Shown piece by piece: positions 56,357-63,987 of a DNA stretch of 64,000 nt (position 1 is the first letter of the stretch; each line of letters begins with the position of its first letter). The position numbers and the translations under genes are program-made. Under the pieces are notes generated by a model. It saw only the letters and a list, made by a program, of their open reading frames with translations. It ran no database searches and was not told the DNA's origin. The DNA comes from Flavobacteriales bacterium. GTDB lineage: Bacteria > Bacteroidota > Bacteroidia > Flavobacteriales_G > Salibacteraceae. The stretch is from the NCBI GenBank assembly GCA_020435995.1, contig JAGQYO010000008.1, forward strand, positions 1 to 64,000, given 5' to 3'.

Positions 56357-57592
56357 ATGAACAGACTCAAGTTTTTAGGGCCAGGATTGTTATATGCAGG
56401 AGCCGCAATTGGTGTTTCTCATTTGGTGCAATCCACCAGAGCTGGTGCTGATTTTGGTTTGGTTATGATATGGGTAATCGTGCTGGCCAATTTAACCAAA
56501 TATCCGTTTTTTAGAATGGCGCCACTGTATGCGGGTATTCGTGGTGAGAGCTTGTTGCACGGGTATTTTGGACTCGGCCGTTGGGCTGTTTGGACTTTTT
56601 TGGTGTTAACCATATCAACCATGTTTGCAGTAATTGCGGCTATTACAGTTGTTACGGCTGGCCTAGCGGAACAAATTTGTGGCTGGCAGATAGAGATGCG
56701 GTATTGGGGTGTTATTTTGTTGGCGATATCTACCGGTATTCTGCTTTTCGGCAAGTATGCTACCCTCGATCGGTTTATTAAGGTGGTCATTTTGATTTTG
56801 AGTGCTACTACTCTTATTGCGTTTTTGATGGCCATAAATATTCCTGACAAAACCGTTGAGATTCCCGAGGCTTTCGATTGGTTTAAAAAGGAGCACATAT
56901 TCTTCTTAATAGCCTTTGTAGGGTGGATGCCTGCCCCAATGGATATTTCTGTTTGGCATTCGGTGTGGGCCATCGAAAAAAGAGATACAAATCGCAAAGA
57001 ATTTACTTTAAAGAAATCGCTTTTAGACTTTAATATTGGCTTCGTAGGCACTGTTTTTCTTGCTATTTGTTTTTTGGTTTTAGGGGCTAAAGTTTTTTAT
57101 GGATCGGGTCAAGAAATGGCGAGTAGTGGGGTAGCATTTTCTGGTCAACTTATCAATGTTTACAGCCAACTATTGGGCAAATGGGCTTACTTTATTATTG
57201 CTATTGCCGCATTCACAACCATGTTTAGTACCTGCATTACCTGCCTTGATGCTTTTCCCAGAGTTGTGAGTGAAAGTTTGGTTAGGGTGCAAGAAAACGA
57301 GGAACTCAATAAATTGAAATATTATAAGATGACGTTGATGATATTGGCTATCGGCGCACTTGGTATCCTATTTTTTTGGCTCCAAAACATGAAGCAAATG
57401 GTTGATTTTGCGACAACGGTTTCATTTATCACCACGCCCATTTTAGCATCTTTGAATTATATGACCATGAAGAATTTAATCAATACGGGCCAATACAAAA
57501 TGGGAATCGTAGAGCGAGTCGCTATTTGGCTTGGTTTCGTATTTCTTTACGGCTTTGCTCTGTATTATGTAGTCCAGAGATTTGTTTTGTAA
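56357..57592 (+). CDS. Nramp-family transporter with non-canonical metal site
   Basis: A 411-residue protein with about 11 membrane segments, related to Nramp/MntH. GPGLLYAG aligns with the Nramp start, but the TM1 DPGN motif reads GVSH (residues 19-22) and the TM6 MPH reads MPA (191-193). In canonical Nramp, the Asp, Asn and the TM6 Met bind Mn or Fe; here Asp and Asn are replaced, Met is kept, and His22 may act. It may therefore carry other ions, or none. It is divergent from priA and convergent with the barrel gene at 57603. The specificity is open. Confidence 0.82.
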   Translation: MNRLKFLGPGLLYAGAAIGVSHLVQSTRAGADFGLVMIWVIVLANLTKYPFFRMAPLYAGIRGESLLHGYFGLGRWAVWTFLVLTISTMFAVIAAITVVTAGLAEQICGWQIEMRYWGVILLAISTGILLFGKYATLDRFIKVVILILSATTLIAFLMAINIPDKTVEIPEAFDWFKKEHIFFLIAFVGWMPAPMDISVWHSVWAIEKRDTNRKEFTLKKSLLDFNIGFVGTVFLAICFLVLGAKVFYGSGQEMASSGVAFSGQLINVYSQLLGKWAYFIIAIAAFTTMFSTCITCLDAFPRVVSESLVRVQENEELNKLKYYKMTLMILAIGALGILFFWLQNMKQMVDFATTVSFITTPILASLNYMTMKNLINTGQYKMGIVERVAIWLGFVFLYGFALYYVVQRFVL

Positions 57593-58487: not shown

Positions 58488-61112
58488 ATGTTTAGGTTTT
58501 TGGTTTTTGGTTCGATATTATTTGGTTTTTCAGGGTTTGGCTTTAGCCAGGCTTCACAAAATGAATGGGCACAAGAAGACATAAGCATTGAAGAACTAAG
58601 AGCGCAGGAGGAATCTGAAAGAGAAAAAGCAGAGGCCTATGCCATACAAATTGGCGCACCACTTGAATATACTACAAGTGATGGAGCTTTTGTTCAACTA
58701 GTTGGTTTTCATAGTGATGGAAGTTTAAAATACTATATTACGGATAACCGCAATGCAGCCAAAACAATTTCTACGAATAAGGTGCATTTGAATGGTGGAT
58801 TGGGGTTAAACCTCGAAGGACAAAATATGACCATAGCCGAATGGGACGGCGGAGATGTATTGCAAACGCATACCGAGGTCTCAGGTAGAGTAACCGATAA
58901 AGATGGTGCAACAGGGGTGCATTACCACGCTTGTCATGTTGCAGGAACATTGATTGCTCGTGGAGCATCAACGTCAGCAAAAGGCATGGCACCACAGGCA
59001 AAATTGTGGGCCTACGATTGGTACAGCGATGATTCAGAAATGAGATCAGCAGCTTTAAGTGGCATTTTGGTTTCGAATCATTCGTATGGTACTGTTGCAG
59101 GCTGGACTTACAACGGTAGTTGGTCGTGGAGTGGAAATACTTCTATTAGTAGTTCTGAGGATTATAAATTCGGTTTTTATGAATTGTCTGCGCAGTATTT
59201 TGATGAAACAGCTAGGCTACGTCCAAATTTACTAATCGTTAAGTCGGCAGGTAACGATAGGGATGATGGTCCGAATCAAACTACGCCAAAAAATGACCCT
59301 ACTTATGGATCAGTTCATAGCCAAGCATGTGCAAAGAACAACCTTGTTGTGGCCTCCGTGCAAGACATTACATCGGGCTATTCTGGAATTAATTCGGTTC
59401 AGATGTCAACTTATTCGTGCTGGGGACCCACTGATGATGGCCGTATTAAGCCAGATATTTCTGCCAATGGGGAACGCGTCTATTCTATGTGGGATGGTAA
59501 AACTAAAAACTATGAGTACTCGTTAGGAACCAGTATGGCGGCACCAAACGCAGCTGGGTCAGCTCTTTTAATTCAGCAGCATTACAAAAATGTAAACAAT
59601 GTTTATGGCAGGTCAGCTACCATAAAAGGATTGATTATTCATACGGCCGATGAGGCTGGAGGCAATGAAGGGCCAGATTACCGTTTCGGTTGGGGCTTAA
59701 TGAATACAGCCAAAGCAGTGCAAGCCATTTCGTCGAGCAATGTAGAAATTGAAGAAAAAACCCTCACATCAGGAACTAAAAATGATATTAAAGTTTCTGT
59801 TAAAGGAAATACTTGGGTGAGAATTACATTATGTTGGACCGACTGGGAAGGAACAGCTCCAAGTCCTTCGCTTAACCCCACTACTTTAATGCTCGAAAAC
59901 GACTTGGATGTTCGATTGATTCACTCTGATAACACGACTTACTATCCCTATATATTGAATCCATCAGTGCCTGCTGCTGCAGCTACCAAGGGAGATAATT
60001 TTAGGGATAATGTGGAGCAGATTTATGTTCAAGTTCCTAAGGCTGGTAATTACACTATTAGAGTAACCCACAAGGGTTGGCTAGTGGGATCAAGTCAACC
60101 GTATTCAATCATCTATGAGAATTTTGAACCGCCCAATGACGTGACCTTTACCATGTCTAAACGAGATATTTGTAAGGGCGACACCGTATTTTTTGCCAAT
60201 ACTACTCAATTTGCCTTTAACTCTTTGAGATGGGATTTTCAGGGTGGTCATATTCAAAATTCAACCTCATCAAATCCTTATGTGGTCTATAATTCAACCG
60301 GACGATTTGGCGTTAAATTGAATATATTTCAAGGAACTCAGACCTTAGACAATTATGATAGTGTAAACGTGCATGAGCATCCTGAAGTGACCATTTTGAA
60401 TAACAAAACGTTTTGTTTACCCAACCTGAAATACGAGACGATTTTGGCCGATGTGCCCACAGGTAAATGGAATGGATATCCGTGGATGGTTCGAACCGAC
60501 AGTTGTGTGTTTAGACCAAGTTCGTTGGGTGCAGGAGACTATGGATTGAAATATACATTTACCAATTTGTACGGTTGTAAAGGGTCGGATTCTACCACAG
60601 TTAAGATTCGAAATTCACCAACTGCTAACTTGTATGTAAATCCAAGGAGCGTATGCCAAGGGGATACACCATTTCTGCTTACTGGAGGAACACCTACAGG
60701 GGGTAGGTATTTGGTGAATTCAAGTTTGATAAACCAATTCGATCCATCTAATTATGCGGTAGGGAATCATGAGGTGCGCTACGAAATTGAAGATGCAAAT
60801 GGATGTATTGGATATGGTTTAGATGAGATCTTAGTAGATATTTGTGAAGGCATTGAGGCAGGAAGCGCAAATGCTGATAAGTTTCAATGCTATCCGAATC
60901 CTTTTTCAACTGGAATGAACATTAGGGGAGATTTGAAAGCGGTAACACAGATATCACTCACCAATATATTTGGAGAAAAGGTTGCGGAAGTTATTGGTCC
61001 ATTCAAGTCGAACTCGTGCTTTCTTGAATTAGGAAATTTGCCCATCGGCGTTTATTACTTAACCGTAGAGGAGGCAGAAGATTCCTTTATTCAAAAAGTT
61101 GTTAGGCAGTAG
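58488..61112 (+). CDS. S8 family serine protease (subtilase) with T9SS sorting domain
   Basis: An 874-residue secreted protease. A signal peptide (about 1-21) precedes a catalytic domain with Asp120 (AEWDGG), His147 in HACHVAGT (usual form HGTHVAGT) and Ser349 in GTSMAAP; the Asn region is VKSAGND. A pro-protein convertase-like beta-domain follows (about 400-540), then a PKD-like domain (about 550-630) and Ig-like segments. The C-terminus has CYPNPFSTGM, a T9SS type A sorting domain. Substrate unknown; it likely degrades external proteins or processes surface proteins. It overlaps the convergent DUF2063 gene by 11 bases. Confidence 0.92.
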   Translation: MFRFLVFGSILFGFSGFGFSQASQNEWAQEDISIEELRAQEESEREKAEAYAIQIGAPLEYTTSDGAFVQLVGFHSDGSLKYYITDNRNAAKTISTNKVHLNGGLGLNLEGQNMTIAEWDGGDVLQTHTEVSGRVTDKDGATGVHYHACHVAGTLIARGASTSAKGMAPQAKLWAYDWYSDDSEMRSAALSGILVSNHSYGTVAGWTYNGSWSWSGNTSISSSEDYKFGFYELSAQYFDETARLRPNLLIVKSAGNDRDDGPNQTTPKNDPTYGSVHSQACAKNNLVVASVQDITSGYSGINSVQMSTYSCWGPTDDGRIKPDISANGERVYSMWDGKTKNYEYSLGTSMAAPNAAGSALLIQQHYKNVNNVYGRSATIKGLIIHTADEAGGNEGPDYRFGWGLMNTAKAVQAISSSNVEIEEKTLTSGTKNDIKVSVKGNTWVRITLCWTDWEGTAPSPSLNPTTLMLENDLDVRLIHSDNTTYYPYILNPSVPAAAATKGDNFRDNVEQIYVQVPKAGNYTIRVTHKGWLVGSSQPYSIIYENFEPPNDVTFTMSKRDICKGDTVFFANTTQFAFNSLRWDFQGGHIQNSTSSNPYVVYNSTGRFGVKLNIFQGTQTLDNYDSVNVHEHPEVTILNNKTFCLPNLKYETILADVPTGKWNGYPWMVRTDSCVFRPSSLGAGDYGLKYTFTNLYGCKGSDSTTVKIRNSPTANLYVNPRSVCQGDTPFLLTGGTPTGGRYLVNSSLINQFDPSNYAVGNHEVRYEIEDANGCIGYGLDEILVDICEGIEAGSANADKFQCYPNPFSTGMNIRGDLKAVTQISLTNIFGEKVAEVIGPFKSNSCFLELGNLPIGVYYLTVEEAEDSFIQKVVRQ

Positions 61113-61869
61113 TTCGGTAGCCAAGAATGAATCCTTTTTCTATCATTTGATTAATCCACTTAGAAATTTGATCCTCAATTTCAGGGGTGAGTTCAAGTTG
61201 AAGCATCGCGCATGTGTCGAGCGCGGCTAAATGTAGATTTTTAGAGCTGTTCAGTTGCCCCATTAGCGTACCAAAAAACAAAGGGAATTCCAGCACTTTT
61301 ACGTTGAGTTTTTTTAAATCACGCAGGAGTATAACGCAATAATTTCCTATTTCCTTTTGGGCATCGCGCAAGGGCATTTTATGTATAGGGTATGAAAGGT
61401 TAATGAGGTAATAATAAGGGTTGAAAACCAGGTCATCCAGCCTCCAATTTCCGTGGTTTATTGTTTTTGGTATTTCTTGATCTGCACCATTGTAAACAAC
61501 TATTTCGGCCCACTCAAACTCCAAAAGTTGGGTCAGAAATGGAAATTCTGTTTTTTCGCTTATGTCAGCATTTTTTACCCAAATGAGCAGCTCTTCGGGC
61601 AGTTTCCAAACTTGATAATGTTGGCATTTATGTTCTATAAAAAACCGTTGTAAAAATTCCTTCCAGCGATCCCCAAACAAATTTCGAGTGATGGGGTAGG
61701 CATTGGTCATAATATCAAATATGACATTGAACACTAGTCTTCTATAATTGTGAAGGCGATCGGGGAGTGCCCCTTTAATTTCCTGCGTTTTACCTGTTTT
61801 ACAATACTCGGCAAGCTGAGATTGAATGCGGTGCGTTTCAGGATTCAACGAACGGGCTGCTTTTTCCAT
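61102..61869 (-). CDS. DUF2063 protein, BufC/HvfC-like partner of the DUF692 enzyme
   Basis: A 255-residue protein. The N-terminal half matches DUF2063: RLHNYRRLVFNVIFDIM, AYPITRNLFGDRWKEFLQRFF and FLTQLLEFEWAEI. In bufferin, HvfABC and methanobactin-type systems, a partner of this kind forms a complex with the DUF692 enzyme and binds the precursor leader. Here the gene overlaps the DUF692 gene by 25 bases on the same strand, strongly suggesting co-expression. The C-terminal half (about 120-255) is less conserved. It ends convergent with the subtilase gene. Role inferred from family and context. Confidence 0.85.
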   Translation of the reverse strand: MEKAARSLNPETHRIQSQLAEYCKTGKTQEIKGALPDRLHNYRRLVFNVIFDIMTNAYPITRNLFGDRWKEFLQRFFIEHKCQHYQVWKLPEELLIWVKNADISEKTEFPFLTQLLEFEWAEIVVYNGADQEIPKTINHGNWRLDDLVFNPYYYLINLSYPIHKMPLRDAQKEIGNYCVILLRDLKKLNVKVLEFPLFFGTLMGQLNSSKNLHLAALDTCAMLQLELTPEIEDQISKWINQMIEKGFILGYRTTA

Positions 61870-62666
61870 GCTTTTGAAGTAATTGATTTTAATTGCCCAA
61901 GTTCTTTTTCTAAAAAGGGTAGTTCGGGAATGTTAAAGTCGCGCTCTAACAAAACGGGAACAGGTGAAATTTGTCTGCTAGTCCATTCAAATAATTCAAA
62001 TACGGGGTCAATAATATCTTGGCCGTGTGTGTCAATAATGAGGTCGTCGCTAATTTTTTCGTGGCCAGCCATGTGAATGTACTCCACATGATTTAATGGC
62101 AATTGAAGAATAAATTCTTTGGAAGAGTATCCGTGGTTGAAGGAGTTGACATACACGTTGTTGACATCCAATAGTAGTTTACAATTGGCGTTTGTGACTA
62201 TTTGAGAAATAAACTCGTGTTCCTCCATTTCGGCAGCTACCGAGGTGTAGTAGGATACATTTTCAATTATCAAAGGTCTTTCAAGCATCTCTTGCACTTC
62301 TTTGATGCGAGATACAATATGGTTTACCGCATCTTGCCTGAACGGAATGGGTAACAGGTCATAAAGGTGGGCATTGTCGCATTTGCTATAGGATAAGTGC
62401 TCAGAATACGTTTTCACCTGATAGCGGTCCAAAAATACTTTGAGCTCCTTTAAAAACGCGTAATCTAATTTATCGGGACTTCCTATGGACAGTGACAAGC
62501 CGTGGCAGAATATAGGGTATCGTTCGGCAATTTGATCTAATTGAGTTTTCCAATAGCCGCCAAGATTCATCCAGTTTTCTGGTGCCAATTCCACGAAGTC
62601 GAAGGCATCACCCTTGTACGCTATCATTTCTTCCGCAAGATCACGCCTAAACCCTAATCCAATCAT
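61845..62666 (-). CDS. DUF692 multinuclear-iron RiPP-modifying enzyme, BufB/HvfB/MbnB-like
   Basis: A 273-residue TIM-barrel enzyme. The N-terminal GLGFRR, ELAPENW (Glu26, Glu30), HGLSLSIG (His55), YSEHLSYS (Glu89, His90), IIENVSYY (Glu135, Asn136), LLLDVNNVYVN (Asp167), HMAGHE (His198, His202), DTHG (Asp212, His214) and LLERDFNIP (Glu241, Asp243) form the complete iron-site set known in this family. Relatives oxidise precursor cysteines to oxazolone/thioamide or thiooxazole groups that chelate copper. ATG at 62666 is preferred over TTG at 62672. It begins 5 bases after the T-tract of a terminator that follows the precursor gene. Confidence 0.92.
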   Translation of the reverse strand: MIGLGFRRDLAEEMIAYKGDAFDFVELAPENWMNLGGYWKTQLDQIAERYPIFCHGLSLSIGSPDKLDYAFLKELKVFLDRYQVKTYSEHLSYSKCDNAHLYDLLPIPFRQDAVNHIVSRIKEVQEMLERPLIIENVSYYTSVAAEMEEHEFISQIVTNANCKLLLDVNNVYVNSFNHGYSSKEFILQLPLNHVEYIHMAGHEKISDDLIIDTHGQDIIDPVFELFEWTSRQISPVPVLLERDFNIPELPFLEKELGQLKSITSKAWKKQPVR

Positions 62667-62670
62667 AATC

Positions 62671-62704
62671 AAAAAAAAGCCCCATCCCAGTATTGGGATA
62701 GGGC
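62671..62704 (-). terminator. Intrinsic terminator between the precursor gene and the DUF692 gene
   Basis: On the minus strand an 11-bp stem (62679-62704, one G-T pair, 4-base loop) is followed by eight T residues (62671-62678). It lies 24 bases after the precursor stop and 4 bases before the DUF692 start. Read-through would allow low enzyme expression. Confidence 0.9.
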
Positions 62705-62728
62705 AATTTAGCTATTAATATTTAGAAA

Positions 62729-63124
62729 TTAGTGTGTTCCACATTTTCCCTCACCACATTTTCCTTCACCGCACTTAGCTTCTTTTGTTTTGTCGTCGCC
62801 TGCCTTAGTAGCTTTGTCTTTTCCAGCTTCTTTGGTTTCTTTTTTTGCTTTAGGAGCTTTTGCGTCTTTGTCTGTAGCCTTGCCATCTTTTCCTTTTCCT
62901 TCGCCACACTTGCCTTCACCACATTTTAATTCTGAAGAAGTGTTGTCGATAAATGCTGATGCAGAGCCATTCAAGTTTAGGATATGAGATCGTATCTCAG
63001 ATCCACTGCCCAGATCATTCACTTGAAATAGATCATTCGAGTTGGCATTTAAAGAAAGAGCACCAATTGCTAAGGTACCTGTAGCCAAAGCGGCTAATTT
63101 TTTCATGTTTTCATTTTTTTTCAT
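62729..63124 (-). CDS. Secreted Cys-Gly-Glu-Gly-Lys precursor peptide, BufA/HvfA-like
   Basis: A 131-residue precursor. A signal peptide (MKKL to about residue 28) is followed by a leader and a first KCGEGKCGEGK block (residues 67-77, Cys68 and Cys73). A 39-residue Lys/Asp/Glu/Ala linker without cysteine follows, then a second block (117-129, Cys118, Cys123, Cys128) and a C-terminal CGTH. EGKCG repeats are the mark of HvfA-type bufferins, where modified cysteines bind copper. A second ATG at 63106 is possible. The two enzyme genes follow on the same strand after a terminator. Modification is inferred. Confidence 0.87.
   Translation of the reverse strand: MKKNENMKKLAALATGTLAIGALSLNANSNDLFQVNDLGSGSEIRSHILNLNGSASAFIDNTSSELKCGEGKCGEGKGKDGKATDKDAKAPKAKKETKEAGKDKATKAGDDKTKEAKCGEGKCGEGKCGTH
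62738..62776 (-). repeat. Cys block 2 of the precursor (residues 117-129)
   Basis: Encodes KCGEGKCGEGKCG. Over the 11 shared residues it differs from block 1 in six codons, all synonymous, so the protein motif is conserved while the DNA is not. Confidence 0.85.
62894..62926 (-). repeat. Cys block 1 of the precursor (residues 67-77)
   Basis: Encodes KCGEGKCGEGK with two cysteines. It is followed directly by the charged linker. Confidence 0.85.
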
Positions 63125-63237: not shown

Positions 63238-63987
63238 TTATGGATTTTTCTGGCAATCCATGATGGCTTTTACAATGTCGTACTCGGCAGCCTTGAGTAT
63301 AAAGTCATCCTCTAAAGGACATTTTTCCATAAACTCTTTGGCGGCTTCGGCGCTTGGCAATCCTGTTACTTTTTGTACTACTTCTGGGTTGTATTTAGAT
63401 TGAATAATTTTTTCTTGTTCGCTTTGGACCTTTGCCTTTGAAAGCCTTTTCTGTTCTTTGGCTTCTTTGCTAAATTTATTATATAAAAAAGTGATTGGAG
63501 ATCCCAAAGGTACGTGTGCATTGAGGTCGGTTTCAACTTCTTCAAGAGATTGCGGTTTGCCAGTACCATAGGTTTTTAATTCAGGTCCAGTTTCTTGATT
63601 TTTAAAATCCTCGGCAAATGATTCTTTGCTGGGATATACCGATACGTCGATTTCTTTTAACTTATAGATTTTCTCATGCATAAAAATGGTAATCTCAATG
63701 GCGTCGGGAATAAATAAAGTGTTGGTGAAAATAACCTTATCTTCATAACCGATGGAGGTAAGTTTGATGGTGTCATTTTGTACATAAGGTATTAAAAAAA
63801 CGCCATCAGAATAGGTATTTGTGGCGGTAAGCGTATTGAGATTTACAACATGTACCCCAACTAACGTGGACGAATCTTTGGAGCTTACCACTTTGGCCTT
63901 CAGTAATTTAATCTGGGCCTGTGTAGTTAAGGACAAAGCGATGCCTATAACCAAGACGAATATTTTACGAAAAGCGATAAATTTCAT
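63238..63987 (-). CDS. Secreted protein with carboxypeptidase-regulatory-like domain
   Basis: A 249-residue protein. A signal peptide (about 1-24, ending TQA) precedes a CarboxypepD_reg-like beta-sandwich (about 26-105; LVGVHVVNLNTLTATNTYSDG, LTSIGYEDKVI), a domain common in Bacteroidota TonB-dependent receptors and surface proteins. The C-terminal part is helical, charged and without a recognised domain. Start ATG at 63987 is close to the window edge, so upstream control is not visible. It lies 113 bases upstream of the precursor gene on the same strand. A link to the metallophore cluster is possible but not shown. Confidence 0.77.
   Translation of the reverse strand: MKFIAFRKIFVLVIGIALSLTTQAQIKLLKAKVVSSKDSSTLVGVHVVNLNTLTATNTYSDGVFLIPYVQNDTIKLTSIGYEDKVIFTNTLFIPDAIEITIFMHEKIYKLKEIDVSVYPSKESFAEDFKNQETGPELKTYGTGKPQSLEEVETDLNAHVPLGSPITFLYNKFSKEAKEQKRLSKAKVQSEQEKIIQSKYNPEVVQKVTGLPSAEAAKEFMEKCPLEDDFILKAAEYDIVKAIMDCQKNP

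Follow-up and report, generated by a model that had tools for sequence, protein, structure and literature searches.

A probable EGKCG captophorin operon in a Flavobacteriales genome, with a conserved leader and a hairpin behind the precursor gene

The stretch analysed here, called the window throughout, comprises 64,000 nucleotides (positions 1 to 64,000 of contig JAGQYO010000008.1, assembly GCA_020435995.1) from a Flavobacteriales bacterium of the family Salibacteraceae. Within 61102–63124 on its reverse strand lie three open reading frames resembling hvfA, hvfB and hvfC, in the order precursor, multinuclear non-heme iron-dependent oxidative enzyme (MNIO) and partner protein. We assign this locus with high confidence to the EGKCG captophorin operons. 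The complete reading, a three-gene operon of the EGKCG/oxazolin type for a ribosomally synthesized and post-translationally modified peptide (RiPP) that carries one 5-thiooxazole per cysteine and chelates Cu(I), seems to us very probable; of its parts, 5-thiooxazole formation is likely and copper buffering by the product probable, both judged from homologous systems. Gene identity and order, enzyme class, signature residues, and the conservation of a leader and of a hairpin were observed directly in this analysis. Among homologous EGKCG systems, both 5-thiooxazole formation and copper binding are documented (PMC13097082, PMC12538549, PMC13419390).

The predicted modifying enzyme

The MNIO matches the DUF692 family (PF05114) with 334 bits against a cut-off of 25, and exceeds the cut-off of the NCBIfam equivalog model for HvfB (NF003818, 384.9 vs. 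360 bits). Cut-offs were not reached with the models for BufB (283.8 bits, cut-off 310), MbnB (50.8 bits, cut-off 325) and ChrH (66.3 bits, cut-off 600). A preliminary description of this DNA, made from the sequence alone, had reported three same-strand genes, which are present as reading frames, and had called them a Bufferin/HvfABC-like cluster. The HvfABC-like half of that label stands, whereas the BufB score and the lack of any DUF2282 match place the locus outside Buf1 and Buf2; the families named there for enzyme and partner, DUF692 and DUF2063, were both recovered above cut-off. Its suggested kinship with methanobactin was not upheld, given the MbnB score.

Twelve residues (H55, E89, H90, E135, D167, N170, H198, H202, D212, H214, E241 and D243) occupy the positions at which an MNIO site should have His, Asp, Glu or Asn and are invariant when aligned with the enzymes of loci L002–L004, which agrees, at the level of an alignment, with the earlier claim of expected iron ligands. 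The same motifs are seen in 3BWW, the best solved relative of the window MNIO and an entry named as close to HvfB (PMC13419390). In FonB, Arg15, Arg16, Asp249 and Phe250 are residues that the Lys-Cys class conserves or relies on (PMC13097082); the window enzyme matches them with “GLGFRRD” (R7, R8) and “LLERDF” (D243, F244). EGKCG-linked MNIOs of relatives have the same residues or a conservative Arg-Lys form, and DUF2282- and Buf2-linked enzymes are without this pair of motifs. Because the Lys-Cys captophorin residues are present, the EGKCG/oxazolin type with one 5-thiooxazole per cysteine is the best reading of the operon, 5-thiooxazole being the expected ring since the first assignment, oxazolone-thioamide, has been revised (PMC13097082, PMC13419390). 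In the tree calculated from 52 MNIOs, a branch with weak support (64/37) sets the EGKCG-linked enzymes to one side, and their separation from DUF2282/Buf2-type enzymes is strong (100/99).

Precursor and partner protein

The precursor has a signal peptide, recognised by inspection, and five cysteines (positions 68, 73, 118, 123 and 128; spacing 5/45/5/5), all within KCG; two KCG or more occurred in only 95 of 20,000 shuffled versions of this protein. This bears out the secreted EGKCG-type precursor of the preliminary description, and its count of five cysteines in two blocks with a 39-residue Lys-rich linker was also correct: 44 residues lie between the second and third cysteines, 15 of them Lys, and 39 remain once the GEGK and K flanks are excluded. 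The further suggestion that this arrangement might be novel was rejected. FonA peptides lost 8, 12 and 8 hydrogens, equal to 2, 3 and 2 repeats (PMC13097082), the cysteines of MmrA come in three cassettes of two (PMC12538549), and block patterns vary among 19 relatives. Relatives’ precursors hold 4 to 9 cysteines, with Lys/Glu/Ala/Ser-rich spacers and inter-block distances of about 10 to 45 residues. Given these precedents and this variety, the block-linker layout is ordinary. No family match was found for the precursor, DUF2282 included; it does not contain the CPxCGxG motif of chryseobasin type, and a plasmid search with it gave no match.

The partner matches DUF2063 (PF09836) with 48 bits (cut-off 27.2). 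Only four input sequences went into its AlphaFold2 model, so the quality is moderate (pLDDT 76.5). The six top matches of this model in the whole PDB are 3DEE, two TglHI entries and three MbnC entries, with E-values of 1.7e-6 to 2.1e-3 for the first three and weaker ones, 0.08 to 0.27, for MbnC. 3DEE is a DUF2063 protein of N. gonorrhoeae, and 3DEE, TglI and MbnC are all partners of MNIO enzymes; the window protein is predicted to have their fold, which resembles a RiPP recognition element. Family and predicted fold thus both support the DUF2063 partner described earlier.

Leader, hairpin and proposed mechanism

Beyond what is known of such operons, we note here a conserved leader, a hairpin after hvfA, and features of regulation and probable enzyme loss. 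The leader, between signal and core, approximates F-x3-D-LGSG-x-E-[LV]-R-x2-LL in 28 of 29 MNIO-linked precursors (the exception is L028), a count that is meaningful as such, although the pattern used to collect them demands the L, G and R positions and makes these invariant by construction. The window form is LF-x3-DLGSG-x-EIR. Its conservation suggests that the leader likely serves recognition by the partner protein. Microbulbifer MmrA also has a conserved leader, modelled as binding the partner (PMC12538549), but FonBC tolerated all the single alanine substitutions made before the core (PMC13097082).

A strong hairpin lies directly 3' of the precursor gene in all 30 loci compared (median z −4.75, all below −2, against mononucleotide shuffles). 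In control regions it was found in 4/30 loci (the 70 nt upstream of hvfA) and 0/30 (200–270 nt further down). The hairpin sequence varies between genera; a terminator-like T-run follows it in most loci of the window’s family and is missing in several distant ones. Its likely purpose is to leave precursor in excess over enzyme, by partial termination or by protecting the mRNA. In the window, hvfA and hvfB are separated by 62 nt, and hvfB shares 25 nt of coding sequence with hvfC. A Moraxella locus, the one published cluster examined for it, also has a hairpin after hvfA; a literature search on hairpins between RiPP genes found no paper with the terms used.

We propose that the precursor would be produced with its Sec signal and short leader, and that HvfC would bind the leader in the cytoplasm and present the core to HvfB. 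The Fe(II)/Fe(III) site of HvfB, with O2, would then remove four hydrogens per Lys-Cys pair, so that each of the five cysteines would end up in a 5-thiooxazole and the mass would change by about −20 Da in all. Once exported, the modified peptide would chelate Cu(I) and buffer excess periplasmic copper, the Lys-rich linker acting as a flexible spacer between two metal-binding blocks, and the hairpin would probably hold precursor mRNA above enzyme mRNA.

Distribution, regulation and probable enzyme loss

Within the window’s GTDB family, a close MNIO homologue occurs in 19 of 34 sampled relatives, and each of these 19 loci has a KCG precursor 31–80 nt upstream on the same strand; the enzyme is thus not part of a DUF692 clade without precursors, an outcome that the preliminary description had named as counting against it. 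The Bacteroidota host it had proposed is consistent with a type IX secretion system (T9SS) sorting domain in an adjoining gene and with relatives that carry the same system. Among 395 genomes sampled at phylum level the HvfB cut-off was exceeded in 7, all with a KCG precursor. PMC12452194 counts about 2,000 EGKCG members, most in Pseudomonadota. Captophorin-type operons, described mostly from that phylum, are a common trait of one Bacteroidota family, and their natural variation in leader, block number, regulation and enzyme loss could be used to test how substrates are recognised and whether the thiooxazole ring is needed.

The precursor can be encoded in trans: in genome G166 it lies on a different contig (L086) from MNIO and partner (L087), and has the same leader motif. 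Near the latter genes (L087:9716-11673) a motif that recurs in the translation (KFKIKKICNQTTT / CGLIADFLNFES) resembles a repeat array of the CRISPR type. Lower-scoring Bacteroidota MNIOs (L033–L043) adjoin other Cys-rich proteins or none that was detected; those of L036–L040 are preceded by proteins of 190–230 residues with 13–17 cysteines (CMGLNxCK-type) and no obvious signal peptide, which are possible other precursors.

An extracytoplasmic function (ECF)-type sigma factor precedes hvfA in genera g4 and g9, in f36 and in L002, and Pfam Sigma70 regions 2 and 4 were found in all four sigma factors tested. Most of these loci also encode a small HxxxCxxC zinc anti-sigma-like protein; the two genes are directly upstream of hvfA in L015, L016, L018, L021, L022, L024, L026, L027 and L002. 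ECF sigma factors paired with zinc anti-sigma proteins often sense redox state or metals. The f36 loci and L002 share a promoter-like element seen by eye upstream of hvfA, GTAAGG-N-CGTCT. This element is absent upstream of the window hvfA, where no TTTG/TAnnTTT promoter was found either, and a conserved promoter was rejected there; an anti-sigma homologue was found neither in the window genome nor in most of the other family members tested. The cluster descriptions of PMC12452194 give sigma/anti-sigma genes for Buf1 clusters and do not list them for EGKCG ones.

In three genomes of sister genus g2 (G001, G014 and G020, one of them a single contig) no match to MNIO or HvfC was found, and each has two or three unlinked EGKCG loci (L078–L084). 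One EGKCG type is divergent from a DUF2147 gene, as is hvfA in L072 and L076. When 728 candidates were searched with a profile of hvfA N-termini, the N-terminus of this type took ranks one to three, although these matches are weak (E-values 0.0007–0.009) and owe most of their score to the signal part; no leader can be recognised. The profile does not match the other types, which resemble lipoproteins. Enzyme loss with retention of the EGKCG motif is likely but not proven, as assembly gaps are possible outside G001. More tentatively, genus g2 may have lost HvfB and HvfC and let the leader decay, its EGKCG proteins now binding metal through unmodified thiols (or being served by an unknown other enzyme). 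If so, the role of the cysteine repeat would be separable from that of the thiooxazole ring, and the leader would be needed only for the enzymes.

Two further genomes have partial loci. G027 retains a sigma/anti-sigma pair (L106, G027:C7:49000-56000) with hvfABC missing, likely a remnant. G025 encodes an 84-residue precursor with leader (L085) near a contig end and no MNIO was found in this genome, for which contamination is 7%.

Comparison with known systems and alternative readings

The closest systems are the EGKCG captophorins oxazolin/HvfABC (Haemophilus), fontiphorin FonABC, gonophorin, bulbicupramide MmrABC and NedABC. The window shares with them a signal-bearing EGKCG repeat precursor in blocks with spacers, an HvfB-type MNIO with Arg-Arg and Asp-Phe, a DUF2063 partner and the A-B-C order; it differs in its phylum branch, its leader motif, the hairpin after hvfA, the lack of DoxX in the operon, and HvfC and HvfA scores under the NCBIfam cut-offs.

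Several of these points count against our assignment. The partner scores 96 with the HvfC equivalog (NF050145, cut-off 142) and the precursor 18 with the HvfA equivalog (NF050188, cut-off 95), both being narrow models of Haemophilus-type proteins and not class definitions. The precursor also falls narrowly short of the NCBIfam KCGExKCG domain (18.8 bits, cut-off 19.5). Because the HvfC model and both HvfA models stay below cut-off, the window’s branch is, by these scores, a divergent one. DoxX, common but not obligatory in known clusters, is found neither in the operon nor in its neighbourhood, and no copper-linked regulator was seen nearby. In Microbulbifer, moreover, the homologous genes were neither expressed nor copper-responsive (PMC12538549).

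That last result, together with hvfA lying behind ECF sigma and zinc anti-sigma-like genes in some relatives, would suit an operon of the same chemistry with another natural job, such as handling a different soft metal or protecting against oxidative stress. We consider this possible but rather unlikely, as EGKCG and bufferin products bind copper where tested (PMC13097082, PMC12538549). Much less probable is a metallothionein-like protein with mainly free thiols, its modification dispensable or partial: genus g2 has EGKCG proteins without a match to either enzyme gene, but the window genome has intact, conserved enzymes and an intact, conserved leader, and where the enzymes are missing the leader is unrecognisable.

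Our EGKCG captophorin reading has also to be set against other MNIO chemistries. Methanobactin MbnABC has the MNIO fold, a cysteine-derived heterocycle, copper, and in MbnC a fold like that of the window partner; chryseobasin ChrAH shares an MNIO from the same phylum, with a CPxCGxG precursor and a fused C-terminal domain of its own. An enzyme forming oxazolone-thioamide, or catalysing another MNIO reaction, would recall the first assignment for oxazolin (table 1 of PMC12452194), yet we think it very improbable, with MbnB and ChrH scores far under their cut-offs and oxazolin since revised. A true Buf1 (DUF2282) or Buf2 (Cys-Lys) cluster can practically be dismissed: bufferins have a related MNIO, a DUF2063 partner, a secreted Cys-rich precursor and published 5-thiooxazole chemistry with a copper role, but BufB falls short of its cut-off, the required DUF2282 or Cys-Lys precursor was looked for beside the MNIO and not found, and the enzyme has Lys-Cys-type signature residues on a separate tree branch.

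Feature coordinates and minor observations

Table 1. Features of the hvfABC-like operon, in window positions.
Feature	Position	Strand	Remark
hvfA-like precursor gene, 131 aa	62729..63124	-	two EGKCG blocks (2+3 Cys) behind signal peptide and leader
Sec-type signal peptide, about residues 1-29	63038..63124	-	no lipobox cysteine; by inspection
Conserved leader, residues 31-49 (DLFQVNDLGSGSEIRSHIL)	62978..63034	-	likely partner-recognition sequence; 28/29 MNIO-linked precursors
Core block 1, ELKCGEGKCG	62903..62932	-	Cys68, Cys73
Lys-rich low-complexity linker, 39 residues	62777..62893	-	sequence not conserved
Core block 2, KCGEGKCGEGKCG	62738..62776	-	Cys118, 123, 128
Terminator-like hairpin	62679..62704	-	between hvfA and hvfB; 11 bp, then 8 T
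hvfB-like MNIO gene, 273 aa	61845..62666	-	DUF692/PF05114
hvfC-like partner gene, 255 aa	61102..61869	-	DUF2063/PME1

The likely start of hvfB is the ATG at 62666, with a TTG two codons upstream at 62672. The upstream neighbour (63238-63987) encodes a CarboxypepD_reg/BamP-like protein, and the downstream one a convergent S8 peptidase with the T9SS sorting domain; neither looks like a member of the system, since it is the three-gene core alone that persists as neighbourhoods vary among relatives. Elsewhere in the window genome there are three DoxX matches, all unlinked and two above cut-off.

A viral collection gave two EGKCG matches. One is a large protein in which the motif occurs by chance. 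The other, on an IMG/VR contig (L100:11399-11845, forward strand), is an EGKCG protein whose C-terminus is EF-hand-like; phage-type genes precede it by a few genes, and the stretch examined contains no MNIO. In the window, an Nramp-family transporter gene (56357-57592, forward strand) lies about 3.5 kb from the operon; it is not clearly a component of the system, and Nramp homologues also occur near hvfABC in L070, L073 and L075.

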